Of a DNA stretch of 64,000 nucleotides, positions 30,014 to 54,468 are shown one piece after another. The number at the start of each line of letters is the position of its first letter. Positions within the stretch are counted from its first letter, which is position 1. This DNA is from Vibrio artabrorum (lineage in GTDB: Bacteria > Pseudomonadota > Gammaproteobacteria > Enterobacterales > Vibrionaceae), in the NCBI RefSeq assembly GCF_024347295.1, contig NZ_AP025458.1, forward strand, positions 1,488,001 to 1,552,000, written 5' to 3'. A model generated the notes under the pieces. It did no database searches, was not told the DNA's origin, and was given only the letters and a program-made list of their open reading frames with translations. The translations under genes were made by a program, and so were the position numbers.

Positions 30014-30430
30014 CTACAAGTTTGGGCCCGTTGTCGGCTTCTGCGGTAGGTTTTGACTCAGACGTCGCATACCTTGATACATACGGACAAACCAAATCAT
30101 AATTGCAACGCCACCAAACAGCATACCGATATATGGAATGTAGAAAGCAATATCATCGATAAGATGGTTTTGATACCAGTAATCGTTCACACCGATTAAC
30201 ACACCATTAGACGTCGCTACCGTTACGATAAGTACGACAAAGAATGTGAGGTTCAAGAAGAACGAGCGAATCAAGCCATAGTAATGCGTATCCACTACTT
30301 CGCCATCTTCCCCTTTATCTAAACGATAACCCGCATAGATGATCGCAATCACACCAGAAATAAGACAAGTCACGGGTGTAAGGCAACTGAGTATATAAGC
30401 GACCCAAATACCTTTATGAGGTTTGTTCAT
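30014..30430 (-). CDS. DUF4870-like membrane protein at the end of the FDH operon
   Basis: The 138-residue protein has about three or four membrane segments (10-32, 48-72, 95-118) separated by a hydrophilic loop with RLDKGEDGEVVDTHYYGLIRS, a layout resembling the Tic20/DUF4870 group. It overlaps the cytochrome b gene by 17 bp and is the last gene before the terminator, so it belongs to the formate dehydrogenase operon. I do not know its role; it could assist the membrane complex. Confidence 0.62.
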   Translation of the reverse strand: MNKPHKGIWVAYILSCLTPVTCLISGVIAIIYAGYRLDKGEDGEVVDTHYYGLIRSFFLNLTFFVVLIVTVATSNGVLIGVNDYWYQNHLIDDIAFYIPYIGMLFGGVAIMIWFVRMYQGMRRLSQNLPQKPTTGPNL

Positions 30431-31487
30431 TCTTATTCACCCCTTCCGTTGTTTCAGTTTCTACGTGAGCGACCGATTGCTCACCGTTTTTCTCTTGTTC
30501 CATTACTTCTTTGTACCAAAGATCATGGTGCTCTTTCGCCCAAGTCTCGTCGACGTCACCGGTTACCATACCTTCTAGCGCACCTTCCATACCGAACAAG
30601 CCGATGTAGATGTGGAACACAAAACCACAGATAAGGATAAGTGCAGCCACCATGTGAACGAGGTTTGAAAGTTCCATATGACGACGGGTTTGCCCAAAGA
30701 TAGGGAAATCAAGAACCAAGCCACTGATCGCCGCCACACTTCCCATCACAATCAACAGCCAGAATAGTGCTTTTTCACCGGCATTTGAGAACTCTGCTGA
30801 TGGATGAGAGCCTTTATGTTTTCCAACCATGCCACCCAGTTTGATAAACCACTGGATATCGACCATCTTGAAAATTGATTTACGCCACCACTTGATAAGT
30901 ACGATCATCAACAGTACATAGAAAATCGGACCGATATAGTTGTGGTATTGCTTAGCGAGTAGAACGATAAAGCCCCAAAGCTCCGTTGGAATGTACGGTT
31001 TCAAAAAGTGCTTGCCGTACACCAACATCAAGCCACTGAATGCAAGCGTTAAGAAAGTAAACGCCATACTCCAGTGCAGTGCGCGATCCAATCGAGTCCA
31101 ACGCTTGATTTTACGACCCGTTCTTGGCGCACTTAGCATTAATGGGCCAATCACAACGTACATCAAAGTCACGAAAGCAATACTGCCAAAGATAGCAACG
31201 GCACCCGCAGGTGACATCCACTTCTCTTTTAATATGTACCACGTTTGACCTGGAGTACTGATCAATACACCGTGCTCGGCAGATTGAGATGTGGTGTAAC
31301 CTTGTTCACCGTTTCTCACTTGTCGCCAAAAATCAGCGCCAGCAAGTTGAACCACTTCACGTTCAGCAGAGCTAGCTTGCGTTTGTGATGAGTTCGTCTC
31401 AGATGCATAACTCATAGGAGAAAGCATTGTCAGTGCTGCCAAAATAGGCAGCACAACAAGGAAGAGACGCTTAAACATTGTAAGCAT
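30414..31487 (-). CDS. Formate dehydrogenase gamma subunit, cytochrome b556
   Basis: The 357-residue protein has a signal-like first helix (10-28), a periplasmic stretch with WRQVRNGEQGYTTSQ, then four or five membrane segments with heme-binding histidines (RLDRALHWSMAFTF, KQYHNYIGPIFYV, NLVHMVAALILICGFVFHIYIG). It anchors the FDH alpha-beta dimer and passes electrons to quinone. Compared with E. coli FdnI (about 217 residues) it is longer by the N-terminal periplasmic domain, as in the Shewanella/Wolinella-type FDH. GGAG lies 6 bases before the ATG. Confidence 0.88.
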   Translation of the reverse strand: MLTMFKRLFLVVLPILAALTMLSPMSYASETNSSQTQASSAEREVVQLAGADFWRQVRNGEQGYTTSQSAEHGVLISTPGQTWYILKEKWMSPAGAVAIFGSIAFVTLMYVVIGPLMLSAPRTGRKIKRWTRLDRALHWSMAFTFLTLAFSGLMLVYGKHFLKPYIPTELWGFIVLLAKQYHNYIGPIFYVLLMIVLIKWWRKSIFKMVDIQWFIKLGGMVGKHKGSHPSAEFSNAGEKALFWLLIVMGSVAAISGLVLDFPIFGQTRRHMELSNLVHMVAALILICGFVFHIYIGLFGMEGALEGMVTGDVDETWAKEHHDLWYKEVMEQEKNGEQSVAHVETETTEGVNKNEQTS

Positions 31488-31500
31488 ACGTCTCTCCTAC

Positions 31501-32109
31501 TTAGCTCTTAGTCGCATCGTAAGAAAGGTCGTTGCCGTTTGTCCAACCTGCACCTTTCGCACCACGCTCTACTACACGTTGACGGAATACATCAGAGACT
31601 TTCTCTGCATCGCCCGCAAGCAGTGCTTTGGTTGAACACAACGAAGCACACATTGGTAACTTACCTTCAGCAATACGGTTCGCTCCGTACTTCTGACGTT
31701 CTTCAACAGAGCCGGGTTCTGTTTCTGGACCGCCTGCACAGAAGGTACATTTGTCCATCTTACCGCGCTCACCAAAGGCTTCCTGTTTAGGGAATTGAGG
31801 TGCGCCAAACGGACAAGCAAACAAGCAGTAACCACAACCAATACAAAGATCTTTATTGTGAAGAACGATGCCGTCCTCTGTATGTTCAAAACAATCGGCT
31901 GGACAAACTGCCATACAAGGCGCATCAGTACAGTGCATACATGCGACTGAGATAGAGTTTTCGCCCGGTTCACCATCGTTCAGTGTGACAACACGGCGAC
32001 GTTGAATACCCCATTCCAGAGCATCATCATTTTCATTCTTACATGCAGTGACACAACCGTTACATTCGATACAACGTTTGGTGTCACAAAGAAATTTCAT
32101 TCTAGCCAT
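31501..32109 (-). CDS. fdhB: Formate dehydrogenase beta subunit, 4Fe-4S ferredoxin-type
   Basis: The 202-residue protein carries four ferredoxin motifs: CIECNGCVTACKNEN, CMHCTDAPCMAVCPADC, CIGCGYCLFACPFG and a last group with CTFC and CASLC. These wire electrons from the alpha subunit to the membrane cytochrome. There is no membrane anchor helix. AGGAG lies 7 bases before the ATG. It is between alpha (11 bp gap) and gamma (13 bp gap). Confidence 0.92.
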   Translation of the reverse strand: MARMKFLCDTKRCIECNGCVTACKNENDDALEWGIQRRRVVTLNDGEPGENSISVACMHCTDAPCMAVCPADCFEHTEDGIVLHNKDLCIGCGYCLFACPFGAPQFPKQEAFGERGKMDKCTFCAGGPETEPGSVEERQKYGANRIAEGKLPMCASLCSTKALLAGDAEKVSDVFRQRVVERGAKGAGWTNGNDLSYDATKS

Positions 32110-32120
32110 TTTAAGACTCC

Positions 32121-34976
32121 TTACGCTTTACGAATATTACAAAGGGTTACTTTCGTTTCCTGCATCAACGTGACAGGGTCGTAACCGTATGTGGTTGCTG
32201 TATTGGCGGCTTCGCCAATAACGTAAGGATCAGTGCCTTCAGGGTATTTAGAACGCAAATCTTCGCCTTCAAACTTACCACCGAAGTGGAACGGTAGGAA
32301 TGCCAGACCCGGTTTTACACGACGAGTGACCATCGCTTTCACTTTGATACGGCCTTTCTCTGCACCCTCAACCCAAACGTCATCACCATCTTTAAAGCCT
32401 ATGTCATTCGCGTCTTTTGGATTCACTTCAACAAACATCTCTTGTTGTAGCTCTGCTAGCCAAGGGTTAGAGCGAGTCTCTTCACCACCACCTTCGTACT
32501 CAACCAGACGACCGGATGTAAGAATAATCGGGTATTCACCAGACTTGTCTTGCTCTTGGATCGACTTGTACAACGTAGGAACACGGAAGATCGCTTCCTT
32601 ATCATCCCATGTAGGGTAGTCAGCTACTAGGTCGCGACGAGGCGTGTAAAGTGGTTCACGGTGCAGGGGTACGCGGTCTGGGAATGTCCAAACAATCGCA
32701 CGCGCTTTCGCGTTACCAAATGGGATACAACCGTGCTTGATAGCCACGCGTTGAATGCCGCCAGAAACGTCGGTCTTCCAGTTTTTGCCTTCCGCTGAAG
32801 CTTTCTCTTCTGCGGTTAAGTCATCCCACCAACCCAACTGCTTCAGAAGTTTGTCACTGAACTCTGGGTAGCCATCTTTAATTTCGCAGCCTTTTGAGTA
32901 GCTGTCTTCAGCCAGTAGGCTTTGACCTTCAAACTCCACACCGAAACGAGTACGGAAGTTACCACCGCCCTCAGCAACCGGTTTAGACGTATCGTAAAGG
33001 ATATGCGTACCTGGGTGTTTCATTTCCGGGTTACCCCAACATGGCCAAGGCAGACCGTAAGTCTCACCGTTCACAGGACCACCTTCTGCAGCAAGTGTGG
33101 TTTTGTGGAACGTGTGCCAGTTCTGTTGGTGCTCTTTCAAGCGCTCTGGGCTTTGACCGGTGTAACCGATTGTCCACATACCCTTGTTGAATTCACGAGT
33201 GATGTCTTCAATCAATGGTTGGTTGTTCTCAACACGGATGTTTTTGAACAGTTGATCAGAGAAACCAAGCTTCTTAGTAAGAAGGTACATAATTTCGTGG
33301 TCAGGTTTAGATTCGAACAGAGGCTCAACCACTTTGTCTCGCCACTGCAAAGAACGGTTTGACGCCGTTACACTGCCGTAGGTTTCAAATTGAGTGGTGG
33401 CAGGAAGCAAGTAAACGCCATCGGTACGATCGTTCATAACCGCTGCGACTGTTGGGTATGGATCAACGATAACCATCATATCCAACTTCTGCATCGCCTT
33501 CTTAATTTCTGGGCCACGAGTCTGAGAGTTGACCGCGTGTCCCCAGTAGAACATGGCACGAATGTTTTCACGCTGACGAATCTTGTCTTTATCTTCAAGT
33601 ACACCATCAACCCAACGAGAGACCGGAATACCAGCGCTGTTCATTGGCTTTTGACCACCGTATGCGTTGTCGTCGAAACGGCCTTTCACCCATTCAAAGT
33701 CAATGTCCCAAACTTTAGACCAGTGACGCCAAGAACCTTCAGACAAACCGTAGTAACCTGGCAATGTATCTGACAAGACGCCGAGGTCTGTTGCGCCTTG
33801 CACGTTATCGTGACCACGGAAGATGTTTGCACCACCGCCCGCTTTACCGATGTTACCAAGCGCAAGTTCTAATACACAGTAAGCGCGAGTGTTGTTGTTA
33901 CCCGTGGTATGTTGAGTCCCCCCCATACACCACACAACACAACCTGGACGGTTTTCCGAGAGCAATTTCGCGGTTTGGTAAACTTCTTCTTCGCTGACAC
34001 CAGTGACACGCTCAACTTCTGCAGGGTTCCACTTCGCAACTTCTTCACGGATCTCATCCATGCCGAATACACGTTGGCGGATGAATTCTTTGTCTTCCCA
34101 TTTGTTAGCAAAGACATGCCAAAGCACGCCCCAAATAAAGGCCACATCTGAACCAGGACGAAGAGAAACATAGTGATCAGATTTCGCTGCCGTGCGCGTA
34201 CGACGAGGATCCGCCACCACGATCTTACAGTTGTTCTTCTCTTTCGCAATGAGGATGTGTTGCATCGCTACTGGGTGAGCTTCTGCTGGGTTCGAACCAA
34301 TGAACAGTATCGACTTACAGTTGTGCATGTCATTGAACGAGTTCGTCATCGCACCGTAACCCCAAGTATTTGCAACACCGGCTACCGTGGTTGAGTGACA
34401 AATACGCGCTTGGTGGTCAACGTTATTGGTGCCCCAAAGCGACGCCATCTTACGGAATGCGTAAGCTTGTTCGTTACTGTGCTTAGCACTACCAAGGAAG
34501 TAAACGGAATCAGGGCCAGACTCTTTACGAAGCTCTAGCGCTTTGTTACCGATCTCTTCAATCGCTTGTTCCCAAGAAAGCTTCTTCCACTTACCGCCTT
34601 CTAATTTCATTGGGTACTTAAGACGACGTTCACCGTGGCCGTGCTCACGCAGTGCTGCGCCTTTCGCACAGTGTCCACCAGCGTTGAATGGGTGATCAAA
34701 TGCTGGCTCTTGACCCGTCCAGACACCATTTTGGACTTCAGCGTAGATACCACAACCCACAGAACAGTGAGAACAGATAGTACGTTTCACTTCTGTTTTC
34801 GCCTCTAGATCGACAGATTTAGCTTGCGCCTTTCTCATCATACCCGGAGCGAACAGACTTGCGCCTACTACCGCGCCACCCGCCGCTAATGAGGTGTTTT
34901 TCATGAAGGCGCGTCGAGACACACCCAGTTGATTCGTTTCTTTGCTCACACTATCGGAGCGTTTGACCAGTTTCAT
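32121..34976 (-). CDS. fdhA: Formate dehydrogenase alpha subunit, Mo/W-bis-MGD, Cys form
   Basis: The 951-residue catalytic subunit oxidises formate to CO2 in the periplasm. It has a Tat signal (VSRRAFMKNTSLAAGG, R21-R22), a 4Fe-4S site at C68, C71, C75 and C103, and the metal-ligand position in DHQARICHSTTVAGV at C193, where E. coli FdnG and FdoG have selenocysteine. The frame has no internal TGA, so it is a true Cys enzyme. The C-terminal molydopterin domain includes LTSGRLVEYEGGGEETRSNPWL. Genes for tungstate uptake and cofactor synthesis lie 15 kb away, so W or Mo could be bound; the sequence does not decide. Confidence 0.95.
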   Translation of the reverse strand: MKLVKRSDSVSKETNQLGVSRRAFMKNTSLAAGGAVVGASLFAPGMMRKAQAKSVDLEAKTEVKRTICSHCSVGCGIYAEVQNGVWTGQEPAFDHPFNAGGHCAKGAALREHGHGERRLKYPMKLEGGKWKKLSWEQAIEEIGNKALELRKESGPDSVYFLGSAKHSNEQAYAFRKMASLWGTNNVDHQARICHSTTVAGVANTWGYGAMTNSFNDMHNCKSILFIGSNPAEAHPVAMQHILIAKEKNNCKIVVADPRRTRTAAKSDHYVSLRPGSDVAFIWGVLWHVFANKWEDKEFIRQRVFGMDEIREEVAKWNPAEVERVTGVSEEEVYQTAKLLSENRPGCVVWCMGGTQHTTGNNNTRAYCVLELALGNIGKAGGGANIFRGHDNVQGATDLGVLSDTLPGYYGLSEGSWRHWSKVWDIDFEWVKGRFDDNAYGGQKPMNSAGIPVSRWVDGVLEDKDKIRQRENIRAMFYWGHAVNSQTRGPEIKKAMQKLDMMVIVDPYPTVAAVMNDRTDGVYLLPATTQFETYGSVTASNRSLQWRDKVVEPLFESKPDHEIMYLLTKKLGFSDQLFKNIRVENNQPLIEDITREFNKGMWTIGYTGQSPERLKEHQQNWHTFHKTTLAAEGGPVNGETYGLPWPCWGNPEMKHPGTHILYDTSKPVAEGGGNFRTRFGVEFEGQSLLAEDSYSKGCEIKDGYPEFSDKLLKQLGWWDDLTAEEKASAEGKNWKTDVSGGIQRVAIKHGCIPFGNAKARAIVWTFPDRVPLHREPLYTPRRDLVADYPTWDDKEAIFRVPTLYKSIQEQDKSGEYPIILTSGRLVEYEGGGEETRSNPWLAELQQEMFVEVNPKDANDIGFKDGDDVWVEGAEKGRIKVKAMVTRRVKPGLAFLPFHFGGKFEGEDLRSKYPEGTDPYVIGEAANTATTYGYDPVTLMQETKVTLCNIRKA

Positions 34977-34986: not shown

Positions 34987-35187
34987 CTAAAGTGTGTCGT
35001 AGTAATCGCGAATATGCTGTGTTTCACGATAGCCGGTCTTCTTCACATCTTGTTTCGAAATTTCAACCGTTTCTGAAGCCGTTGCCATTTTGGTCGTGCC
35101 AGCGACAACAGCACCGGCCACAGCTGCGGTTGTTAAGCCTTTGAGTAAGTCCCTACGGCTTGTGTTTATCTCTTTATTATCTTTCAT
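34987..35187 (-). CDS. Formate dehydrogenase region Tat-target small protein
   Basis: The 66-residue protein is mostly a Tat signal (NTSRRDLLKGLTTAAVAGAVV) followed by a short mature part ending YRETQHIRDYYDTL. This matches the small Tat-target family that sits directly before fdhA in many proteobacteria. It may be a small subunit or export partner. Of the two adjacent ATGs, the second (35187) has better spacing to AGGAAG. Confidence 0.85.
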   Translation of the reverse strand: MKDNKEINTSRRDLLKGLTTAAVAGAVVAGTTKMATASETVEISKQDVKKTGYRETQHIRDYYDTL

Positions 35188-35264
35188 CATTGCTTCCTTA
35201 CCTCTCGGTGGATCTTTTTTGGAGGCTTCATGCCCCTCTATCGATATAATCGCGTACGGCTTGA

Positions 35265-35915
35265 TTACTCGTAATCAGTGACGTTTTTCACATCAATCTT
35301 TAATTTGTGTTTACTGGTTATCGTCTTCACGCTAAAACGCACTTGTTCTAACATTAAAAATGCTTCACATAGCTGAGCTGCAGATTTATAGAAGTTGGCA
35401 CTTTTTGCCGCTTCAAGCTGACGCGTAAAAGCGTTGAACCAAGGGCCAAGGTGTTTATTGAAAAAAGCTTGTTGAAGCGCCTCTTCTTCACCCGTTAACA
35501 TCGCCATCACTTCACATAGAGCTGCGATATGATCTTCAGGCTCTTTCACTTGGTCATCACGCTCAATGCCTAAAAGTTCGAGATCATGACGAATCTCTGC
35601 TAATGGTTTCTCCATCATAGCGCCAGTGCGATGCCAAGAACCAAATGGAACAACCTCTCCACGACCAATACCAATGAACAGATCTTGATATTCGTCTTCT
35701 AATGCTTCGCGAGAAGCTTCGGTTGCCGCTTGTTGAATAGCAACCCACGCCTTTTGCATCGCACTTTCAGACGCTTCAATGTCTAACGTTTTTAGAAACT
35801 CGATCACCTCGTCAGAAGGTGCGCAGCGAAACAGTGCAGATAAAACCAAATAAATTTCAGTTCTGAGTGTCTGTTCTTGTTCCAGTTCTTGTGCTTGATC
35901 TAAATGAGTATCCAA
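35265..35915 (-). CDS. TorD/DmsD-family chaperone for formate dehydrogenase
   Basis: The 216-residue all-helical protein has the TorD-family core EYQDLFIGIGRGEVVPFGSWHRTGAMMEKPLAEIR and PEDHIAALCEVMAML. Such chaperones bind the Tat signal of a molybdoenzyme and hold it until cofactor loading. The start is TTG at 35915 with GGAG 6 bases upstream. Position just before the Tat peptide gene and fdhA indicates that FdhA is its client. Confidence 0.85.
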   Translation of the reverse strand: MDTHLDQAQELEQEQTLRTEIYLVLSALFRCAPSDEVIEFLKTLDIEASESAMQKAWVAIQQAATEASREALEDEYQDLFIGIGRGEVVPFGSWHRTGAMMEKPLAEIRHDLELLGIERDDQVKEPEDHIAALCEVMAMLTGEEEALQQAFFNKHLGPWFNAFTRQLEAAKSANFYKSAAQLCEAFLMLEQVRFSVKTITSKHKLKIDVKNVTDYE

Positions 35916-35924: not shown

Positions 35925-37616
35925 CTAATATTTCAATTGTTTCAACGGATCTTGTGCCATTGAATCGAACATATCTACCACACGACAGTCTTCACACATC
36001 GCAATGCGGTTAATCGCAGCTTCATCTGAAAAATGAGAGTGACCGCGTAACTTATCCTGTAGCATATCAATCATAGACTGCGGTGCGAATGGCTTATGAC
36101 AACGAATACATTGCGCCGCTTTTTCTTCATGAATCACCATCGCTTGCTGACGCTCTTCCTTCGCCCAGTTCATGCGAGGCGTTAGAGTCAGAACGTTCTC
36201 AGGACACGCTTTTTCACATAAGCCACATTGAATACAGTCTTGTTCAACAAACTTAAGGGATGGCGAAGCGCCGTCAGTATGCAGCGCACGTGTTGGACAC
36301 ACCGCTACACAGCTCATGCACAACGTGCAATCTTTGCTCTCACACGACACTGTGCCATATGGTGCATTGGAAGGAAGTTCAACCACATTCTCAACTGGAA
36401 TGCGAGCTGATGCCATCGCATCCAGTGCTGTAAATAGGCGTTGGCGTTTATTGCCTTGAAGCTCACCAAGTGCCAGATCGAATGAATCCACGCACAGTGT
36501 AGGAGGGCCTTCACGAAGCGATTCTAAATAAAGGATATCGATGGTTTCTTTTGGGATACCAATTTGATCAAGAAGCTCTTGAGCGATCCCGACTTCGTTA
36601 CTCAGCACACGAATGATGGTTTCGGGCATAAAGTGAGAAGCCGCAAACAAAACCTGAGTTGCGCCATTCACGAGCGCTGCAAACCACGTATCGATACCAA
36701 CAGATGGTAGCTCTTCTACCACAATTGGAATGACGTTTTCTGGGAGAGCCTTTAACGCCATCACGTTATAGGTTTCATGACGTGAGCTACAGACAAGCAC
36801 GATAGGATCTAGCCCACCCGCTTGCTCATAATTGGCTAACGTACGTTCAATGAACTTTTGAGTGTCGTCAGGGTTCGGCAATGCGTAAGAGATCGCTTCT
36901 GTCGGACAGCTTGTTGCACACGTCCCCACGCCCTGACATAAATAAGGGTTAATTTCGATCTTGTGACCCGTTTTATCTGAACCTTCACTCGACAGTGCAC
37001 CAGCAGGACAAGCATCAACACAACGCTCGCAACCTTTTACGCCACGAGAACTGTGTGCACAAAGGTCGGTGTCTAAACGGAAGAACTTAGGCTTATCGAA
37101 TGTCCCCATCAGTGTTGGGATCTCTTCCAGTGCTTCTGCCAGCTTTGGATAACCTCGACCTACTGGATAATAACCCGGTACAGGCACTTCTTCTGTCATG
37201 CAGCTATTCAGACATAGGTCTAGCACAACATCGAAACAATCGTGATTAATCGCGACTTTCGCTAGGTTATTGGTTCGACCTTTGCTTTCGATAAGAACTT
37301 CGAATGTACCGAGGAAACCAGACACTTGAACTGAGTTTGCGTAGTAAATTTCGATTGTTTTTTGACTATGGGTTTGATTCCCAGCGGCACTCGAAAGCTC
37401 CCCGTCAGTCGAAAGTAAAGTCAGGCTAGTAAGCTGCGGTAATTGTGCAGCTGCACTCTCAATGATCTTTGTTGGACCAATGATGAGTGTATTTCCCCCG
37501 CTCTCGTAACTTACGGTCGGTGGAATTAGGTTGGTTAACTCAACTGTATTCTCAAATGCATACAGCCTTGCTTTAGCGTTATTTGAAGTTGCTTGTTCTA
37601 ATAATTGTTTAAGCAT
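35925..37616 (-). CDS. Multi-cluster 4Fe-4S ferredoxin protein, first gene of the FDH operon
   Basis: The 563-residue cytoplasmic protein has no signal peptide. It carries two pairs of ferredoxin motifs (GVKGCERCVDACP and GVGTCATSCP; CTLCMSCVAVCP and CIQCGLCEKACP) separated by a domain of about 200 residues. At the C-terminus are CIRCHKPFAP and MCEDCRVVDMF, CxxC pairs that could bind zinc or another cluster. Related proteins precede fdh genes in Shewanella and other vibrios, with roles in FDH maturation or electron supply not settled. A sigma-54 promoter and palindromic sites lie upstream. Confidence 0.85.
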   Translation of the reverse strand: MLKQLLEQATSNNAKARLYAFENTVELTNLIPPTVSYESGGNTLIIGPTKIIESAAAQLPQLTSLTLLSTDGELSSAAGNQTHSQKTIEIYYANSVQVSGFLGTFEVLIESKGRTNNLAKVAINHDCFDVVLDLCLNSCMTEEVPVPGYYPVGRGYPKLAEALEEIPTLMGTFDKPKFFRLDTDLCAHSSRGVKGCERCVDACPAGALSSEGSDKTGHKIEINPYLCQGVGTCATSCPTEAISYALPNPDDTQKFIERTLANYEQAGGLDPIVLVCSSRHETYNVMALKALPENVIPIVVEELPSVGIDTWFAALVNGATQVLFAASHFMPETIIRVLSNEVGIAQELLDQIGIPKETIDILYLESLREGPPTLCVDSFDLALGELQGNKRQRLFTALDAMASARIPVENVVELPSNAPYGTVSCESKDCTLCMSCVAVCPTRALHTDGASPSLKFVEQDCIQCGLCEKACPENVLTLTPRMNWAKEERQQAMVIHEEKAAQCIRCHKPFAPQSMIDMLQDKLRGHSHFSDEAAINRIAMCEDCRVVDMFDSMAQDPLKQLKY

Positions 37617-37781: not shown

Positions 37782-37799
37782 CAGCAAATGCCATGCCAG
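37782..37799 (-). promoter_or_regulatory. Sigma-54 promoter of the FDH operon
   Basis: On the minus strand the sequence reads TGGCATGGCATTTGCTG, with GG and GC exactly 10 bases apart, against the consensus TGGCACGnnnnTTGCW. The predicted start of transcription is near 37772, about 155 bases before the first gene's ATG. Confidence 0.75.
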
Positions 37800-37861: not shown

Positions 37862-37890
37862 ACCGCTTGGGACATTTTGTCGCAAGCGGT
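37862..37890. terminator. Terminator hairpin of the DUF3306 gene with an embedded activator site
   Basis: ACCGCTTG (37862-37869) pairs with CAAGCGGT (37883-37890), and the inner GACA-TTT-TGTC continues the stem. On the minus strand a run of TTTTTTT follows. The inner stem is also a copy of the GGACATTTTGTCC palindrome. Confidence 0.75.
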
Positions 37891-37943
37891 TCATTGAGTG
37901 TTTAGTCAAAATGTACCTATTCTTTGTGTGGTATATTTTGTCC
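37870..37943. promoter_or_regulatory. Cluster of three putative enhancer sites for the FDH operon
   Basis: Three copies related to the palindrome GGACATTTTGTCC occur: GGACATTTTGTCG at 37870-37882 (12 of 13), AGTCAAAATGTAC at 37904-37916 (10 of 13 in inverse orientation), GTATATTTTGTCC at 37931-37943 (11 of 13). Their centres lie about 104, 138 and 165 bases upstream of the predicted sigma-54 start, the usual range for NtrC-type activators. Confidence 0.65.
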
Positions 37944-38630
37944 CATCTCGTTCAGGTCAGCTTCGTCTGACATTGTAGCGTTAACATCTGGTACTGTGTT
38001 TTTATACAGCTCGCTTCCTTGTTCGGTTATTTCGGCACTTTCTGAAGTTTCAAGTTCATTCTCCGACACCTCAAGATCGCTTCCAGAATTATCTAAAACG
38101 TCGCCTTCATCTTTATTATCAATGACTTGTTCTTCTTCTGGTGTGGTTTCTTCTTCCGTTTTGTCTTTAACCCAATCACGCAAGGTTTCAGCCACCCCTT
38201 TAGAAAGAGACGTCAAATTACTGTAATCGTCGTCGTAATCATCTAAACCATCACGAATGTTGAACTCTTCTGAGAGGAATAATTTACGCAATGCCGCTTT
38301 TTTTACGCTTTCTGAGGCTTCTGACACCAATAATTGAGCAACAGACAAGTCTTCAGTCGTTTCTGATGCTACCTCCTGAAAGTCAATAGCTTGAGAATCG
38401 ACAGCGTGATCGTCTTCATTGTGTTCTGGAGACTCATTTTCTAAAGCACTATTTTCTGAGGTCTCACGCTCTAATGACTCCGATGTTTGTGCGTCTAAAG
38501 ATGAAGCAGCAGACGAAGCCTCAGCGGAAGTAAGCTCAGTTCCCTCAAGCGTTTGTTGCGCTTCTAATGGTTGGTCGGTCGATTGATCAAGTTTTCGTTG
38601 CGACCATCGGCTAAAAAAGTTAGTTGCCAT
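37917..38630 (-). CDS. DUF3306 domain protein linked to formate dehydrogenase
   Basis: The 237-residue acidic protein begins MATNFFSRWSQRKLD, the DUF3306 mark, and contains ALRKLFLSEEFNIRDGLDDYDDDY in a largely disordered Glu/Ser-rich chain. Such proteins are found with DUF3305 and fdhD next to FDH operons; function unknown. It overlaps DUF3305 by 11 bp. One of the enhancer-like sites lies in its last codons. Confidence 0.82.
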   Translation of the reverse strand: MATNFFSRWSQRKLDQSTDQPLEAQQTLEGTELTSAEASSAASSLDAQTSESLERETSENSALENESPEHNEDDHAVDSQAIDFQEVASETTEDLSVAQLLVSEASESVKKAALRKLFLSEEFNIRDGLDDYDDDYSNLTSLSKGVAETLRDWVKDKTEEETTPEEEQVIDNKDEGDVLDNSGSDLEVSENELETSESAEITEQGSELYKNTVPDVNATMSDEADLNEMGQNIPHKE

Positions 38631-39084: not shown

Positions 39085-39123
39085 ACTTTACCCAATTGAT
39101 TTTCTTTGGTCTGAATGCATTTA

Positions 39124-45924: not shown

Positions 45925-47952
45925 TCATAAGTTCGACACCAACAACTGCGGTGTCGCTTTCTTTTGAAGGTAGATACTAAAACAGCTCCCCTTACCGACT
46001 TCAGATTCGACACGAATCTCTCCACCCGTTTGACTCAAAATACTTTGCGACACCGATAAACCAAGGCCTGTTCCATCTCGTTTAGTGGTATAGAAAGGCG
46101 AGAAGATCCGTTTTAGCTGTTCTTCACTGATACCACAACCTTGATCTTCAACGTGAATTATCGCGCCACGAGATTTATCATTTTCGACCCAATCTTCGCT
46201 TGAGATAGTCAATATCCCCTTACCTTCCATCGCGTGAATCGCATTCATCTGGAGATTAACCAATATCTGAAGCAATTGGTTTCGGTTAACTTCGACCGAA
46301 GTTTTAGCATTAAGTTTTGATACGTAAACGATGCCTTTCTTTTTGGCCCCCGTTTTGACCAGTGTGATGCTTTCATCGACAATCGGGTTGATGTGTTGCC
46401 AGGTCACTTCATCTTGTACACCGCCATGTCGGCTGTATTGCAGTAGACTGCGGGTGATGTTTCGAATTCGGTCAATCTGCTCCATGATGGCGTTCACCTC
46501 TTCACCAACACAAGTGACTTCCTCTCCTAGCTCAAATTTGATGAGTTCGACATTACCAAGAATCACCGCCGTCGGATTATTGATTTCATGGGCAATACCC
46601 GCGGTTAACTCCCCCAATGCAGCTAGTTTTTCACTGACCACTAACTTATCACGAGCCTGGTTCAGCAGTTTGATATGCCGTTCAAGCTCTTCGGTTTTAT
46701 CTTTCAAACTGGCTGTGCGCGAATGAACCTTACATTCTAATTCAAGTGCCGCTTGCTGTATCTCTTGATTGCGCTCGTGCAACAGATCCAGCATCTTATC
46801 AAACTGTTTCGCAAGCAGCGTGAGTTCATGTTGATCATCCAAACCAAGGGGACCAATTCGCTTGTCTTGCCCCATCTGGACGAGTTTGACAACTTTGTAA
46901 ATGCGCTCTATTGGCTTGAAAAGATCACGAGCACCACGGTGAACAATGAAACCAGAAGCCAACAACAACAACACGATAGTAATGCTGATTTCACCAAGAT
47001 TGGTTAAGTACGTCTCTATTAGCGGCCACAACAAATAACCGGTATAAAGCATGCCAATCACGTTACCAAACTGATCATGAATCGGCTGATAAGCGGTAAT
47101 GTACCAAGCATCGTACACATACGCTCGATCTAACCACTCTTTACCTTCATTTAAAACCTTGGCATTAACTTCATGTGAAACTCGAGTACCAATAGCACGC
47201 CCGGCACTTTCTTCACTGCTCAAAGGCACATTTGTACTGACACGAAGATCATCGAGGAATACGGTGATGGTGCCCACACGGCGATTAAAACCATCGCGTT
47301 TCGGGTAAATCAAGTTGCTAATTTGATCGACCAATTGAGTGCTATTATTCAGTAAGATTCCGCCGTCAAGAAAACCAATCACATGGTCATGCTCATCTCG
47401 AATAGAAACGACGGTTCGACTGACTAAACCTCTCGTTTCTACTCCCTGTTCATTGAGCATCGGAACTTCGGCTTTCTTCGCGAGATCTCGATCCAGAGTG
47501 TTAAGTTCATCTTGACTTAATACACTGAAAAACGACTCTTTGTGCGTCAAGTTAAGGTATTGAAGCTTATTGGTTAAATGCTCAACACTGCGCCAGCGTA
47601 AAAAATCGAGCTGATAACGTGACTTATTTTCAGACACCCAACGGGCGAAGTCTTCTTGTGAAGCATGATTCGCGAGTTTGATTCGGAATTGGTAAGATTC
47701 AGCAAAAGCTTTAACGTTGTAGGCCTGTTGGCTTTGAATTAGCTGAATACTATTTTCTGCAACATCCAAACGCTCATCAACATCAATCAACGCCCCTTGC
47801 CACGTATAATGAATTGACCAATATAAAGTAATCGTCACCAACGCACATAACGTGAGAATGATCGGAGCGGAGGTCAAAAATAATAAGCGGTAACGCACCA
47901 TGGTTTTGAATCGAAACGCCCATTTTCGCCACCAAGGCCGTCTAATCGGCAT
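45925..47952 (-). CDS. Sensor histidine kinase with periplasmic Cache-type domain
   Basis: The 675-residue protein has a membrane helix (22-44), a periplasmic domain of about 270 residues that ends in EGKEWLDRAYVYDAWYITAYQPIHDQFGN-type sequence as in Cache sensors, a second helix (319-337), HAMP (338-392), a coiled coil, and a kinase core with GIAHEINNP (H455), an N box in NLQMNAIHAM, DQGCGIS and GTGLGLSVS. It pairs with the NtrC-type regulator gene, which overlaps its start by 11 bp. The ligand is unknown; formate, tungstate, molybdate or a related anion is a guess based on neighbours. Confidence 0.88.
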   Translation of the reverse strand: MPIRRPWWRKWAFRFKTMVRYRLLFLTSAPIILTLCALVTITLYWSIHYTWQGALIDVDERLDVAENSIQLIQSQQAYNVKAFAESYQFRIKLANHASQEDFARWVSENKSRYQLDFLRWRSVEHLTNKLQYLNLTHKESFFSVLSQDELNTLDRDLAKKAEVPMLNEQGVETRGLVSRTVVSIRDEHDHVIGFLDGGILLNNSTQLVDQISNLIYPKRDGFNRRVGTITVFLDDLRVSTNVPLSSEESAGRAIGTRVSHEVNAKVLNEGKEWLDRAYVYDAWYITAYQPIHDQFGNVIGMLYTGYLLWPLIETYLTNLGEISITIVLLLLASGFIVHRGARDLFKPIERIYKVVKLVQMGQDKRIGPLGLDDQHELTLLAKQFDKMLDLLHERNQEIQQAALELECKVHSRTASLKDKTEELERHIKLLNQARDKLVVSEKLAALGELTAGIAHEINNPTAVILGNVELIKFELGEEVTCVGEEVNAIMEQIDRIRNITRSLLQYSRHGGVQDEVTWQHINPIVDESITLVKTGAKKKGIVYVSKLNAKTSVEVNRNQLLQILVNLQMNAIHAMEGKGILTISSEDWVENDKSRGAIIHVEDQGCGISEEQLKRIFSPFYTTKRDGTGLGLSVSQSILSQTGGEIRVESEVGKGSCFSIYLQKKATPQLLVSNL

Positions 47953-49405
47953 AGTCAGAACCTTCTGTGCTCCAATCTTTGTACTTACGTTCTAGCGTTT
48001 TACGTGCCACCCCTAAATCTCTCGCTGCCGCAGACTTATTACCATCATGGAAACTCACGAGTTGCTCAATATGTGCTTTTTCAACTTCTTTAAGCGTCCA
48101 ATTATTTGGATAACCTTCCGTGGGGCTAGCCTTTCCCATATCCGGCATGCTAACACCATGTGACACCGTCACTGATAGGCTCGTAGGAGCTGCATTATCA
48201 TTAATTTCTCGCCAATAGTGAGCGGGCGGCTTATCGAGTAAAATACATCTTTCGACTAAATTTTTAAGCTCACGAACATTGCCAGGCCATTCGTATTGGT
48301 GCAAAGCCAAAATGTCTTCATGTGCCCAATGAGGTACTGGCATCCCTAACTCGCTCGATAACAAGTGGGTAAAATATGGGACCAGTTCAACCAAATCAGA
48401 CGGGCGTTCTCTTAAAGGTGCAACATCAATCTTGAGCACATTCAGGCGATAGAATAGATCTCGACGAAAATGCCCTTTATCGACCTCTTGTTGAAGATTA
48501 CGGTTAGTGGCAGCAACGACACGCACATCAATTGAAATTTCTTTCTCGCATCCCACTGGACGAATCGTTCGTTGCTCCAAAACACGCAATAACGCCGCTT
48601 GCATGGACAGTGGCATTTCTCCTATCTCATCAAGAAACAGCGTACCACCACTGGCAACTCTAAATAGACCTTCGCGGTTTTTTTTAGCTCCGGTAAATGC
48701 ACCGGACGTATGACCAAACAACTCACTTTCCAAAAGCTCAGGCGCAATTGCCCCACAGTTAATCGGCACGAAAGGACCAGTACGTTTACTGGCGTCATGA
48801 ACACCTCGGGCAACCAGCTCTTTCCCTGTCCCCGATTCTCCTTCGATAAGTACAGACGCTCTTGATGGTGCAAACTGGGTGATCAGTCGCTTAAGTTGTT
48901 TGGTTTTATCAGAGCTCCCAAGCAATTCTGTTTTAATATGCCGACTGACATCACGTTTAAGCGCATATTGCATTCGCTGGTCTAAACGTTTGTCCATACA
49001 GCGCAGAACAGCTTGAATGATTTGATCTAAATTAAACGGTTTAAGAATAAAGTCCGACGCCCCCAACTTCAGTGCAGATATCGTCATCTCTAAGTCGGCA
49101 TAACCCGTCATAAAGATAACGTCCACTTTTCGGTCGGTGTCGTTAAAAACCTCTTCCCACTCAATGCCTGAACGACCAGGAAGATTGATATCAAGAACAA
49201 TTAAATCGAAATGCTGATTGCTACGCAGAATTTCGGCCTCTTCGACGGAGCCTGCACACGACACTTTACCAAAGTACTTACCTAGCGCTTTTTTGAGAAT
49301 CGCCTGCATACCGATCTCATCGTCCACAACCAAGACGGAAAATGCTTGATATTGAGTCAATGTATTTGAATTGAGATTTGACACATTTGAACGAGATAAA
49401 GACAT
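47942..49405 (-). CDS. NtrC-family sigma-54-dependent response regulator
   Basis: The 487-residue protein has a receiver (phospho-acceptor D72 in [10 protein letters not shown]), an AAA+ domain with Walker A GESGTGKE (189-196), GAFTGA (235-240) and [12 protein letters not shown], and a C-terminal Fis-type helix-turn-helix ([23 protein letters not shown]). The intact GAFTGA shows it can activate RNA polymerase with sigma-54. I prefer the ATG at 49405 because the 20 extra residues of the longer frame are not like any receiver start. It is divergent from tupA, with palindromic sites between them. Regulation of tup and fdh genes is inferred from sites, see findings. Confidence 0.88.
48160..48172. 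promoter_or_regulatory. matS site (MatP binding)
   Basis: GTGACACCGTCAC matches GTGACRNYGTCAC exactly. It lies inside the response regulator gene, 37.5 kb from the first site, similar to the average matS spacing known in E. coli. Confidence 0.85.
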
Positions 49406-49430
49406 AATGAACAGCCAGTAGGAAAAGTTG

Positions 49431-49488
49431 GGACAGAGTGTACCAATTAACCCCATGTGCAACATACTCAGTGTGCGACATTTTGTCC
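49431..49488. promoter_or_regulatory. Two putative enhancer sites between the regulator and tupA
   Basis: CGACATTTTGTCC at 49476-49488 matches the palindrome at 12 of 13 positions; GGACAGAGTGTAC at 49431-49443 matches its inverse at 10 of 13. Centres lie about 123 and 168 bases upstream of the predicted tupA transcription start. Confidence 0.62.
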
Positions 49489-49577
49489 TAGCTCATGTTT
49501 TGATTCATTTTATCAAGATAAATGGCGTACTTTTATCCGAAATAACAGTAATTAAATAGAATTTGATTCACTATTTA

Positions 49578-49595
49578 TTGGCACTAACTTTGCTT
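49578..49595 (+). promoter_or_regulatory. Sigma-54 promoter of tupABC
   Basis: TTGGCACTAACTTTGCTT fits the consensus TTGGCACnnnnnTTGCW fully, with GG (49580-49581) and GC (49592-49593) 10 bases apart. Predicted start near 49605, about 100 bases before tupA. Confidence 0.85.
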
Positions 49596-49706: not shown

Positions 49707-50513
49707 ATGAAAGCAATTCCTCTAGCTATTGCAGCCCTATCTATCGTCAGTTACACAGCAAGCAGCGCTGAAGACACCACACATATCAAGCTGGCTACCA
49801 CGACAAGCACCTACAACTCTGGACTACTGGATTACCTATTACCAAAGTTTGAAAAAGATACGGGCATCAAAGTCGGTGTTATCGCTGCCGGTACGGGGAA
49901 ATCACTTCGTATGGGTGAGAATGGTGATGTTGATTTGGTGATGACACACGCTCCAAAGGCTGAAGCGGATTTCGTTGAAAAAGGCTACGGTGTTCTGCCT
50001 CGTAAACTTATGTATAACGATTTTGTGGTTGTTGGACCAAAGAGTGACCCTGCGAAAATTGCGTCTCAAAAAAATGTCATCGATGTTTTCAAGGTAATCG
50101 CAAACAGCAACGTGACATTCTTGTCTCGAGGTGACGATTCAGGTACCAACAAGAAAGAGATGGGCATTTGGGCACAAACCAAAATGGAGCCTAACTTTGG
50201 TGGCTATCGTAGTGTTGGTCAAGGCATGGGACCGACGCTGAACATGACCTCTGAGATGCAAGGTTACACGCTCACGGATCGTGGTACTTGGTTGGCTTAT
50301 CAAAACAAACTGGATCTAAAAATCCTTTTTCAAGGCGATAAAAATCTATTCAACCCTTACCAAGTGATCCTGGTTAACCCTAAACGCTACCCAACCACCC
50401 ACTATAACGCAGCAAAAGTATTCAGTGACTGGCTTGTTAACCCTAAAGGGCAGAAGCTGATCAACGATTTTAAACTGCAAGGTCAGCAGTTGTTTGTTGC
50501 AAACGCAGAATAA
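49707..50513 (+). CDS. tupA: Tungstate ABC transporter substrate-binding protein
   Basis: TupA binds tungstate in the periplasm for TupBC. The 268-residue protein has a Sec signal peptide (to about SSAED) and the TupA marks ATTTSTYNSGLLDYLLPKF, GKSLRMGENGDVDLVMTHAP, NDFVVVGPKSDP and SRGDDSGTNKKE, which form the oxyanion pocket. Molybdate-type ModA has different motifs, so tungstate preference is likely though some family members take both. I chose the ATG at 49707, 8 bases after GGACAG; the frame extends 24 codons upstream. Confidence 0.92.
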   Translation: MKAIPLAIAALSIVSYTASSAEDTTHIKLATTTSTYNSGLLDYLLPKFEKDTGIKVGVIAAGTGKSLRMGENGDVDLVMTHAPKAEADFVEKGYGVLPRKLMYNDFVVVGPKSDPAKIASQKNVIDVFKVIANSNVTFLSRGDDSGTNKKEMGIWAQTKMEPNFGGYRSVGQGMGPTLNMTSEMQGYTLTDRGTWLAYQNKLDLKILFQGDKNLFNPYQVILVNPKRYPTTHYNAAKVFSDWLVNPKGQKLINDFKLQGQQLFVANAE

Positions 50514-50608: not shown

Positions 50609-50660
50609 GATTACGTCATTAACACATTCAGACTGATTGTCGACCGAAATGAGAGCTTCC

Positions 50661-51359
50661 ATGTCCTTATGGCAAACAACGCTTGATGCATTAAATTTAT
50701 TGGTGAGTTTCGATAACGAATTGTGGAAAATCGTTGCGGTATCTTTTAGTGTCTCTTTATCCGCCATTTCCTTGGTCATTGTCCCTGCAATCATCATATC
50801 CTTCCTCTTAGCCTATACCGAGTTTCCAGGAAAATGGTCACTGTTGTCGATAATTAACACCCTCCAAGCCATCCCCACCGTGGTGATCGGTTTACTGTTG
50901 TACATGATGTTGTCGCGTTCTGGCCCCTTGGGTGACTGGCAATTGCTGTTCACACAAAAAGCGATGATACTTGGCCAAATGCTGATCTGCTTCCCGGTGC
51001 TGGTTGCAATGATGCATGGCGCGTTACAAGCCAGTGACCGTCGTGCTGTTGAAACCGCTCGTACACTCGGCGTTTCAACCACTCGAGTGGCATGCACGTT
51101 AATTTGGGAAACACGCTTTCCTTTAATGGCAGCCGCCATTGCCGCATTTTCTCGCATCGTAACGGAAGTGGGATGTTCAATGATGGTTGGTGGCAATATC
51201 ATGGGGATGACAAGAAATATCCCAACAGCGATTGCAATGGAAAGCCATAAGGGGGCCTTCGCTCAAGGCGTTGCACTGGGTATGGTCCTACTTGCCTTGG
51301 CATTAGCGCTAAACTTTTTTCTCTCTAGTGTGAGAGGAAAAGGCTATTTAAGAACTTAG
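50661..51359 (+). CDS. tupB: Tungstate ABC transporter permease
   Basis: The 232-residue protein has five to six membrane segments and the permease EAA loop (AVETARTLGVSTTRVACTLIWETRFPLMAAAIAAFSRIVTEVG). ALQASDRRAVETARTLGVS and MVGGNIMGMTRNIPTAIA are typical of TupB. The ATG at 50661 is preferred over an upstream TTG because AGAG lies 6-7 bases ahead. It is followed 10 bp later by tupC. Confidence 0.9.
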   Translation: MSLWQTTLDALNLLVSFDNELWKIVAVSFSVSLSAISLVIVPAIIISFLLAYTEFPGKWSLLSIINTLQAIPTVVIGLLLYMMLSRSGPLGDWQLLFTQKAMILGQMLICFPVLVAMMHGALQASDRRAVETARTLGVSTTRVACTLIWETRFPLMAAAIAAFSRIVTEVGCSMMVGGNIMGMTRNIPTAIAMESHKGAFAQGVALGMVLLALALALNFFLSSVRGKGYLRT

Positions 51360-51369: not shown

Positions 51370-52089
51370 ATGAGTATAAAAATAACAACACAGCAAATCT
51401 CAATGCGCTTTAAGGAGCGTGTTTTATTCCATATACCTGAATTATCAATTGGTCCTAACGATGCCATTTATCTTAAAGGTGATAATGGTGTCGGAAAAAC
51501 GACCCTACTTAAAATTTTGTCCGGTTTAATCCAGCCAAGTTCTGGACAGATTCAATCTCCAACCCAAAGCTGGCACCAGCTCTTATTCCCAAGGTCAAAA
51601 TTTAAAGACATCATCTATTTGCACCAAACGCCGTATCTTTTTGATGGTTCGGTATACCAAAATGTTGCTTACGGCATTCGATTTCATAAAGGGAGCCAAA
51701 AAGATAAGCGCGCTCAAATAATTAGCGCGTTGAGAATGGTCGCTTTAGAAACCTTAGCGGATGAGCATATTTCTGTCCTCTCAGGGGGGGAACGCCAGCG
51801 CGTTGCAATGGCTCGGGCTTGGATTTTAAAGCCCTCAATTTTGCTCATGGATGAACCGAGCGCCTCTTTAGATAAAGAATCTATTGAAAGATTAGTCATT
51901 ATGGCTGAAGATCTCCTTTTACGAGGCGCAAGCTTGGTCATCACAAGCCATCAAGCCAATGCGTTAACCGATTTATGTAGGAAGCAATGGTGGATCAAAG
52001 ACAACACTTTGACTGAATCAACGCTTCTGAAAGTTATTCAAAAAAACAGTGCACAAGAGAACATTTATGTTGCTTCCAGCGCAAACTAG
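51370..52089 (+). CDS. tupC: Tungstate ABC transporter ATP-binding protein
   Basis: The 239-residue ATPase has Walker [15 protein letters not shown] loop [13 protein letters not shown], signature [15 protein letters not shown] and Walker [13 protein letters not shown]. It drives uptake by TupAB. No ModC-type TOBE domain is present, as expected for TupC. It overlaps mobA by 23 bp, tying metal uptake to cofactor synthesis in one transcript. Confidence 0.9.
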
Positions 52090-52651
52090 TTGGGTTATTT
52101 TGGCCGGCGGACAAGCCAGCCGTATGGGTGGAAAAGATAAAGGACTCGTTGAACTTAACGGGTCGCCGCTTATTCAATATGTTATCGACCAGCTGTCACG
52201 ACAAGATGTCAGCATCACCATCAATGCAAACCGTAACTTAGACCGTTACCAAACCTTTGCGCCTGTTGTGTCTGATTCCTTCCCGGATTACCCGGGGCCA
52301 TTAGGGGGGATTCATGCCGGTCTTAAAAACGCGACGACAGATTGGGTCGGGTTTGTACCTTGCGATAGTCCGCAAATTAATAGCGACCTTGTGACACGTT
52401 TTTGTGCAGCAGTGAAAGAGAACAGTGACATTCTTGTCGCTCATGATGGCGAATTTAAGCAACCGGTATTCACCCTATTCCACAAGCGTGTCCTACCAAA
52501 GTTAGAAGCATTTTTGGAACGTGGTGATCGTAAAATCATCCTACTGTACAAAGACTGCGTGACTGAGTACGTCGACTTTAGTGACTCGCCAGATTGCTTT
52601 GTCAATCTCAATACGCCAGAAGAACTCACCCAATTCGGAACCCTTCGATAA
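52067..52651 (+). CDS. mobA: Molybdenum cofactor guanylyltransferase MobA
   Basis: MobA attaches GMP to molybdopterin, making MGD for bis-MGD enzymes such as formate dehydrogenase. The 194-residue protein has the nucleotide motif [39 protein letters not shown] and a C-terminal [10 protein letters not shown] as in E. coli. The ATG at 52067 is chosen (AAGAGAA upstream); it overlaps tupC by 23 bp and the next gene by one base. Confidence 0.93.
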
Positions 52652-54468
52652 TGAAAGATTCTAAACAACGCCCTAACCTTCCTCTATTGGGCTTTGCTGC
52701 TTATAGTGGTACAGGTAAAACAACGGTACTTGAAGCTCTGCTGCCGTTATTGACTGAATCGGGTTTAAAAGTAGGTGTGTTAAAACATGCTCACCACGAT
52801 TTTGATGTCGATAAGCCGGGTAAAGACAGTTACCGTTTACGTAAAGCGGGCGCGAACCAAATGTTGATTGCATCTCGTAACCGTCACGTGATGATGACAG
52901 AAACGCCAGAGGCGGAAGCAAATTTTGATTACTTGCTGACTCGCTTTGATATCAACACGCTTGATCTGATTTTGGTGGAAGGCTGTAAGAACATCGCTTT
53001 CCCAAAAATCGAACTGCATCGAGATGAAGTGGGCAAACCTTGGTTGTACCCGAACGATGACAACATTATTGCTATCGCGGCAAACAGCCAAGTTGAATCC
53101 GATCTACCACAAATGGCGATCAACGACTTAGAAGCGATTCGTGATTTCATCATCGATTACGCGCAGTCCTTTGACCTTTCATCTACAACAGGCAAAGCCG
53201 TGTCATGCTCATCTTCAAAAGACGCAGCGCCCACAGTGTGTTGTGATTCGTTCTCTCCTGCTGGTCTAACCGTTTCTCAAGGCCAACAAAAGATTGTTGA
53301 TAGTATTGACGCACTCGATCTCACTGAGAGTGTTGAATTGTTGCAGGGCTATGGCCGCGTATTGGCGGAAGATGTCATCTCACCAATCAATGTTCCTCAA
53401 AATACCAACTCTGCGATGGATGGCTATGCGATCCGTAGTCAAGATCTAGAATTGGACAGCTACAACATCGTTGCGGAAGTCATGGCCGGTCACTGCTACC
53501 AGCAAACCGTTCAACAAGGTCAAGCGGTTAAGATCATGACGGGCGCACCAATGCCAGAAGGTGTTGATGTTGTCGTGATGCGCGAACAAGCCGTTCAAGA
53601 TGGCGACACCGTTCGCTTTCCTGACGCTAAGATCTCGGTTGGACAAAATGTCCGTATGGCCGGTGAAGATTTAAAGATCGGCCAACCTGTCTTTACCCGT
53701 GGCACACGCATTGAAGCGCCAGAAATGGGCATGATGGCGTCGTTAGGTTTTGGTACCTGCCCGGTTGTGCGTAAAGTGAAAGTGGGTGTGTTCTCGACGG
53801 GAGATGAAGTTCAAGCGCCGGGGAGCGAACAAAAACCCAACTCTGTCTACGACTCGAACCGTTTTACGATTATCGGCATGCTTCAAAAACTTGGCTGTGA
53901 CATCGTTGATTACGGCATTATTGAAGATGACGAACAAAAGATGATCGACGTGCTGCACTCTGCATCGCTTGAAACCGACATGGTTCTGACTTCGGGGGGC
54001 GTGTCTGTTGGTGATGCAGATTACATCAAGCTTGCGTTAGATAAGCTGGGTGAAATCAACTTCTGGCGTATCAATATGCGTCCGGGGCGCCCTCTTGCTT
54101 ACGGCAAAATTGAAGATAAACCGTTCTTCGGTTTACCGGGTAACCCAGTGGCTGTCATGGTGTCGTTCATTAACTTTGTTGAGCCTGCGATTCGCAAGCT
54201 TCAGGGTCAAACCAACTGGACGCCAGTGAAAGCAAACGCAGTCGCCACTCAACAACTGCGTTCACGCCAAGGCCGTACTGAATTTAGTCGTGGAGTATTC
54301 TCGATGAATGAATTCGGCGTGCTTGAAGTGAAAACAACAGGTAAACAAGGTTCAGGTATTCTGCGCTCAATGAGTGAAGCAAACTGTTTAATCGAGATCT
54401 CACCAGCGGTTGATACCGTAAAAGTGGGTGAGACAGTGACGATCATTCCTTTGCAAGGCCGCGTTTAA
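52651..54468 (+). CDS. MobB-MoeA fusion, molybdenum cofactor biosynthesis
   Basis: The 605-residue protein fuses two enzymes. Residues 1 to about 175 are MobB, a P-loop protein (AYSGTGKTTVLEALLP, KHAHHDFDVDKPGKDS), which partners MobA in MGD synthesis. After a Ser-rich linker, residues about 210-605 are MoeA, the metal insertase (TNSAMDGYAIRSQD, MTGAPMPEGVDVVVMREQ, FSTGDEVQ, TSGGVSVGDADYIK, GLPGNPVAVMVSF). It starts with a one-base overlap (TAATG) to mobA. The operon order tupABC-mobA-mobB/moeA links tungstate uptake to insertion. A perfect GGACA-AAA-TGTCC palindrome lies in the MoeA part. Confidence 0.92.
   Translation: MKDSKQRPNLPLLGFAAYSGTGKTTVLEALLPLLTESGLKVGVLKHAHHDFDVDKPGKDSYRLRKAGANQMLIASRNRHVMMTETPEAEANFDYLLTRFDINTLDLILVEGCKNIAFPKIELHRDEVGKPWLYPNDDNIIAIAANSQVESDLPQMAINDLEAIRDFIIDYAQSFDLSSTTGKAVSCSSSKDAAPTVCCDSFSPAGLTVSQGQQKIVDSIDALDLTESVELLQGYGRVLAEDVISPINVPQNTNSAMDGYAIRSQDLELDSYNIVAEVMAGHCYQQTVQQGQAVKIMTGAPMPEGVDVVVMREQAVQDGDTVRFPDAKISVGQNVRMAGEDLKIGQPVFTRGTRIEAPEMGMMASLGFGTCPVVRKVKVGVFSTGDEVQAPGSEQKPNSVYDSNRFTIIGMLQKLGCDIVDYGIIEDDEQKMIDVLHSASLETDMVLTSGGVSVGDADYIKLALDKLGEINFWRINMRPGRPLAYGKIEDKPFFGLPGNPVAVMVSFINFVEPAIRKLQGQTNWTPVKANAVATQQLRSRQGRTEFSRGVFSMNEFGVLEVKTTGKQGSGILRSMSEANCLIEISPAVDTVKVGETVTIIPLQGRV
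53641..53653. promoter_or_regulatory. Perfect 13-bp palindrome inside the MoeA coding region
   Basis: GGACAAAATGTCC is the inverse complement of GGACATTTTGTCC and is the only fully symmetric copy in the window. It lies within coding sequence of the putative target operon; it may be chance or a decoy or distal site. Confidence 0.4.

Follow-up and report, generated by a model that had tools for sequence, protein, structure and literature searches.

FhlA of Escherichia coli is a sigma-54 activator that answers formate, binding it inside the cell itself and working without a kinase. TunR/TupR of Desulfovibrio reportedly, to judge from the title of Rajeev 2019, belong to a regulator family other than the one considered here. 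We describe a histidine kinase and NtrC-type regulator of Vibrio artabrorum which, like FhlA, would connect formate with sigma-54, the sensing in this case being predicted to take place outside the cell and via the kinase. The pair lies in a 64-kb stretch of DNA (the window; G000:C1:1488001-1552000) in a genome of 4.44 Mb on two contigs. The genes follow the order formate dehydrogenase (FDH) operon on the minus strand, DUF3305/3306, fdhD, an ABC-F protein, an AAA/MscS pair, the kinase, the regulator and a divergent tupABC-mobA-mobB/moeA operon, and the kinase and regulator genes overlap by 11 bp (Table 1). From sequence comparison and structure prediction we hold it quite probable that a formate-sensing kinase acts through the regulator on the sigma-54 promoters of the FDH and tup/mob/moeA operons.

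The accessible part of PMC10102598 describes TunR/TupR as regulators of tungstate uptake genes; control of tungstate uptake would be common to them and the present NtrC-type regulator. AtoSC, ZraSR and other NtrC-family systems share the domain plan of our pair. AtoS and AtoC are its best NCBIfam matches, but the scores fall far short of the equivalog cut-offs (201.4 bits against 646, and 373.9 against 714) and the sensor domain and targets differ. In the accessible part of PMC12316311, formate dehydrogenases make up 32% of the 176 members of one COG that are predicted to depend on sigma-54, so sigma-54 control of these enzymes in general is not new; that part mentions neither an activator nor a site, and neither a link to tungsten nor a signal. 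By gene order and numbering the presumed orthologues of the regulator are VC1522 of V. cholerae and VF_1401 of Vibrio fischeri, the latter placed among the class I enhancer-binding proteins in the accessible part of PMC10162802. The literature examined, much of it available only in part, states no function for either, and a search in which subscription papers were mostly beyond reach found no description of this regulon.

Palindromes and sigma-54 promoters of the FDH and tup operons

The putative binding site is a 17-bp palindrome, approximately TGRGACA-WWW-TGTCYCA, which occurs as pairs upstream of the FDH operon (spacing 61 bp) and between the regulator and tupA (45 bp). GGACATTTTGTCC is found with one mismatch at 37870, 39124 and 49476, one in each of the three intergenic regions that the original prediction named as serving FDH structural, FDH accessory and metal/cofactor genes; the number of sites with at most one mismatch expected in the window is 0.15 (mean of 20 first-order Markov simulations). 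TGRGACANNNTGTCYCA with up to two mismatches matched four times in the window against 0.67 expected, a count equalled in one of 100 shuffles, and TGNGACAWWWTGTCNCA with up to one mismatch occurs at only two places in the entire genome, 37868 and 49474. We also scored sites with a matrix trained on 58 sites from other genomes, the window and loci L062-L065 being excluded. The five best sites in the window were 37868, 49474, 49429, 37929 and 39122 (scores in Table 1), the sixth scoring 9.3. In 200 Markov-simulated windows the best score averaged 11.8 and reached at most 20.9, which 37868 and 49474 both exceed. Hence the FDH and tup regions stand far above chance, whereas the accessory-gene site at 39122 does not on the 64-kb scale. 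The three best sigma-54 promoters of the window, by a hand-weighted score, fall in the same three regions (37798 and 39177 on the minus strand, 49579 on the plus strand).

We searched 121 genomes of the Vibrionaceae. The sensor part of the kinase occurs in one copy each in 87 of them, TupA in 92 and this FdhA in 90; all 87 sensor genomes carry TupA and 86 carry FdhA. Beyond the window there are 86 sensor loci, of which 39 were fetched, and in every one of these the kinase and regulator genes run divergently from tupABC-mobA-mobB/moeA. As the original prediction had envisaged, the palindrome proved to be conserved upstream of fdh and tup in other vibrios: a matrix score of at least 10 was found at tupA in 39/39 loci and at the first FDH gene in 37/37, against 1/125 control upstream regions, the tupA loci and 27 of the 37 FDH loci not being independent of the matrix because its training sites lie in L066-L100. 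The controls were the upstream regions of abcF, aaa781, mscS, fdhA and mobB/moeA, some of which lie within operons. With at most one mismatch the consensus gave 70 sites in 40 loci (window included), 67 of them upstream of tupA or the first FDH gene and three in coding DNA, compared with a mean of 0.57 and a maximum of 5 for shuffled palindromes (n=30); with at most two mismatches there were 123 sites against a shuffled mean of 8.0 and maximum of 31. A sigma-54 score of at least 20 was seen at all 39 tupA promoters and at none of the 125 controls.

Ten of the 39 fetched stretches lacked fdh genes, and all ten genomes carry FdhA elsewhere. Their fdh regions were fetched separately, none having entered the matrix training, and in 10/10 the palindrome (at most two mismatches) immediately precedes the first FDH gene. 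Eight of these regions are 29-112 kb from the kinase and all eight keep the palindrome; those of G114 and G110, where the gene order is unchanged and the distance is 20-22 kb, were not counted as relocated. Exact consensus sites occur in 60/87 genomes with the sensor vs 2/34 without it, and the reversed pattern in 5/121. Among the 75 exact sites listed, which come from 60 of the 62 genomes, 71 are no more than 25 kb distant from the kinase; of the four exceptions, the one in G082 precedes tupA, on a contig that is split.

Five genomes have TupA with no sensor detected (G030, G011, G022, G041 and G067), the regulator having been sought within their fetched stretches. G030 and G011 carry tup beside fdh, and their four target genes score no more than 1.6 with the matrix and 16.0 for sigma-54. 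G022, with tup and neither sensor nor FdhA, scores 8.6 and 19.3 upstream of tupA. The G041 kinase (L122:6557-7768) is 403 residues long and lacks the whole Cache domain, with a short loop between two membrane helices as judged by eye; that of G067 resembles it, to judge from its match.

A class-wide sample of 369 genomes contained the sensor in 22, this one included. The 21 remote loci, many of them on short contigs, have a regulator match in 20 cases and tup, mob or fdh genes in about 13; the fetched DNA of the remainder showed none of these genes. A scan of genome contigs named at least 80 loci, and among those listed a regulator match is present in 80, tupA in 75 and, within the DNA covered, fdh genes in 35. 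In 71/78 listed loci (4.2 expected) the single best matrix site of the locus precedes one of the four target genes (tupA, the first FDH gene, DUF3305 or fdhD), as it does in 25/29 outside the Vibrionaceae (1.7 expected), loci without any target gene having been dropped (two overall, one outside the family). Among the listed loci outside the family are those of Thiodiazotropha and of Aeromonas, Shewanella, Ferrimonas and Neptunomonas, and in the last four genera the sites recur. Collectively the footprinting, the co-occurrence, the relocated fdh regions and the absence of sites where the sensor is missing uphold the proposal of one two-component system for the FDH and tungstate/cofactor operons, and on these comparisons the support for the regulon is good where two operons are concerned, a third being possible.

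Some further occurrences of the palindrome were noted. An exact copy of GGACATTTTGTCC lies at 53641 (palindrome 53639-53655) inside the mobB/moeA coding DNA, and several of the listed Photobacterium loci (e.g. L200, L204, L207, L210 and L221) also have a strong palindrome within this gene, which could reflect codon conservation or an intragenic site. The main fdh palindrome is the centre of an inverted repeat (37851-37901, 24-bp arms) resembling a terminator for DUF3305/3306, and this stretch may serve two purposes. Further regulon members were sought, and exact core or consensus matches at C1:2203890 of the same genome and in L161, L163 and L164 were set aside because their best sigma-54 scores, taken over 400 bp, were only 15.2-16.5. 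Judged by eye from the translations, two of the four are intragenic (in ptsI and in ksgA), one precedes a cytochrome gene (a CRP-like site) and one adjoins hipBA-like genes. On the matrix L161 and L164 reach 25.8 and 24.0, so good palindromes by themselves do occur elsewhere than at the locus.

The sensor domain and its likely ligand

The sensor matches sCache_3_3 with 97.0 bits (cut-off 28.8), in a kinase 98% identical to one of Vibrio minamisatsumaniensis. The original prediction left the ligand between formate and a metal oxyanion. The two Protein Data Bank (PDB) entries nearest by sequence, 8py0 and 8py1, are formate complexes from the group of formate-binding chemoreceptor domains (sCache_3_3 / Cache_3-Cache_2) that includes PacF and McpF, and they also have the best VIA-align Z for the predicted sensor fold. 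In the alignment to 8py1 the sensor residues R237, T240 and T256 coincide with the formate-binding Arg/Thr/Thr reported for PacF, and these positions are conserved in 36/36, 36/36 and 31/36 sequences (Ser in the other five). These nearest entries and the aligned residues make formate a better candidate than a metal oxyanion, and it is probably the ligand, sensed outside the cell. The present domain differs from those of PacF and McpF in that it drives a histidine kinase and carries an extra segment. The only other sCache_3_3 protein of the genome, L256 (G000:C1:2057825-2058145), has the sequence of a chemoreceptor; it shows a similar Arg/Thr pattern and is possibly a formate receptor.

Alternative explanations

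The palindrome might be the site of another enhancer-binding protein or of a global regulator, its position beside the pair being incidental. Binding by the present regulator is something we infer from sequence, and in the accessible part of PMC6855506 an AphA site lies between VC1522 and VC1523. Moreover, VC1510-VC1518 and VC1523-VC1524, which by order and name appear to be the counterparts of the window genes, rise together in riboflavin mutants according to the accessible part of PMC5816637, where three of them (VC1514-VC1516) are assigned to an iron regulon. Nevertheless, exact sites follow the sensor and, among those listed, nearly all are near the kinase, and R488, T490, R493 and W498 of the regulator's helix-turn-helix are invariant in 140/140 rows covering it (142 aligned), which fits one conserved site without proving binding; we regard this explanation as very improbable. 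A two-promoter regulon, with DUF3305/3306 and fdhD outside this regulator and 39122 a chance site, deserves to be taken seriously, although we do not favour it. The 39122 palindrome is conserved in the close relatives L062-L064 and weaker in L065, it stands out only within its own region (0/50 shuffles), and 0.95 sites of at least 10.6 are expected per simulated 64-kb window. Across the 39 Vibrionaceae loci the matrix search for a DUF3305-fdhD palindrome was negative, a score of at least 10 being found at DUF3305 in 3/39 and at fdhD in 3/39. Against this, sigma-54 scores of at least 18 occur at 25/39 DUF3305 and 26/39 fdhD promoters vs 10/125 controls, and VC1517-VC1518 rise together with the FDH and tup genes in the same accessible part of the riboflavin study. 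Sites with matrix scores of 11.7-19.6 lie between DUF3305 and fdhD in three of the four listed Ferrimonas loci that hold these genes (L236, L237 and L243; not L239) and in both such Neptunomonas loci (L247 and L254), and these give the third promoter its strongest backing. The accessory/sulfuration promoter proposed originally is upheld only in part: the sigma-54 elements are conserved and the palindrome, in most Vibrionaceae, is not.

The same regulon could instead be run by a kinase that senses tungstate/molybdate, another anion or the redox state. Among the loci listed tupA adjoins the kinase and regulator in 75/80 and fdh genes lie within 10 kb in 35/80, so that the metal genes are the nearest neighbours of the kinase. 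However, the nearest solved sensor domains are formate complexes with Arg/Thr/Thr aligned, and G022 keeps tup with neither sensor nor FdhA, which implies that the sensor follows the enzyme rather than tup alone; we therefore think such a signal unlikely. Several observations weigh against a formate-sensing kinase controlling both operons. The formate entries align over only 136-149 of 274 sensor residues, Foldseek E-values rank LuxQ and another kinase ahead of them, and, since the chemoreceptor L256 has it, the Arg/Thr pattern may mark the domain family and not this sensor. The sigma-54 score reaches 18 at only 22/37 FDH promoters (10/125 controls), 27/87 sensor genomes have no exact consensus site, and in G087 the sensor is present and FdhA was not found. 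G041 and G067 keep the regulator and its adjoining palindrome with tupA sigma-54 scores of only 13.5 and 14.5. Other inputs also exist, as the iron and AphA connections of V. cholerae indicate.

Gene content of the locus and proposed regulatory logic

Family searches of the window proteins bore out the gene descriptions given originally. The regulator has the receiver, AAA+ domain with GAFTGA and Walker motifs and Fis-type helix-turn-helix of the NtrC-type (group I) plan; its start may be at 49405, as first described, or at 49465. TupA, TupB and TupC fall under the NCBIfam equivalog cut-offs (255.5/400, 180.5/320 and 98.2/400 bits), and the PDB relatives of TupA are 3lr1, named as tungstate-binding (E 6e-75), and 5my5 (E 1e-68). 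The FDH beta and gamma subunits exceed the FDH3-type thresholds of NCBIfam (335.4 bits, cut-off 240, and 261.7, cut-off 115.85). The catalytic subunit, which we take from its active-site motif to be the cysteine form, misses the Fdh-alpha cut-off (480.7 vs 666.25 bits). The metal would be tungsten.

Table 1. Coordinates of genes and predicted regulatory sites in the window.
Feature	Position	Strand	Remarks
Small protein, last FDH operon gene	30014..30430	-	matches no family
FDH gamma, cytochrome b subunit	30414..31487	-	above cut-off
FDH beta subunit (FDH3)	31501..32109	-	above cut-off
FDH catalytic subunit	32121..34976	-	
Small twin-arginine protein	34987..35190	-	translation; coordinates read by eye
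TorD-like FDH chaperone	35265..35915	-	
4Fe-4S protein ('fd563'), first FDH operon gene	35925..37616	-	
Predicted sigma-54 promoter, FDH operon	37783..37798	-	window's best score
Palindrome, main fdh site	37868..37884		matrix 25.3, window's best; within hairpin
DUF3306 protein	37917..38630	-	
Palindrome, second fdh site	37929..37945		matrix 15.4; in end of DUF3306
DUF3305 protein	38620..39084	-	
Weak palindrome between DUF3305 and fdhD	39122..39138		matrix 10.6
Predicted sigma-54 promoter, DUF3305/3306	39162..39177	-	window's third best
Candidate sigma-54 promoter, fdhD	39338..39353	+	score 18.0
fdhD sulfurtransferase	39491..40333	+	
Sensor histidine kinase, periplasmic sCache_3_3	45925..47952	-	Pfam sCache_3_3, HisKA, HATPase_c; H, N, G1, F, G2 boxes
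NtrC-type sigma-54 response regulator	47942..49405	-	Response_reg, Sigma54_activat, HTH_8; GAFTGA, Walker motifs
Palindrome, second tup site	49429..49445		matrix 17.0; 24 bp upstream of 49405 start
Palindrome, main tup site	49474..49490		matrix 21.5
Predicted sigma-54 promoter, tupA	49579..49594	+	window's second best
tupA, tungstate-type binding protein	49707..50513	+	open reading frame from 49635; start 49707 chosen by eye
tupB permease	50637..51359	+	NCBIfam
tupC ATPase	51370..52089	+	ABC_tran; name given from position
mobA	52049..52651	+	NCBIfam, above cut-off
mobB-moeA fusion	52594..54468	+	NCBIfam, above cut-off

Beside the kinase, 42527-45767 encodes a 781-residue AAA_22 protein and an MscS-type channel, a pair found there in many, not all, Vibrio loci. 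At 29047-29832 lies a DoxX-family protein whose match to HvfX, a copper-peptide maturation protein, is below the cut-off. Scans of the 64-kb window for Rfam families (gathering threshold) and tRNA genes gave no matches.

In the mechanism that we propose, the kinase would bind formate in its periplasmic Cache domain and phosphorylate the NtrC-type regulator. The latter would bind the palindrome pairs and, with a presumably positive effect, switch on the FDH and tupABC-mobA-mobB/moeA operons from their sigma-54 promoters, so that synthesis of the enzyme would be coupled to tungstate uptake and to the supply of its dinucleotide cofactor. This activator would probably also govern DUF3305/3306 and fdhD, acting in most vibrios from a site that is weak or lies farther off. 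What would be new in this NtrC-type regulon with its formate-type Cache sensor is metal uptake at the command of the substrate, formate being the likeliest signal.

A regulator for which the accessible literature gives no function thereby gains a candidate binding site, candidate targets and a likely ligand, and formate-responsive control parts are useful in CO2/formate biotechnology. We lean, with some reserve, towards a broader view of an old gammaproteobacterial system, extending from Vibrio to Thiodiazotropha, in which formate outside the cell, and not the metal, commands the acquisition of tungsten and joins one FDH to its tungsten/cofactor supply. In the proposed logic it would be substrate sensing rather than metal sensing that sets tungsten uptake.

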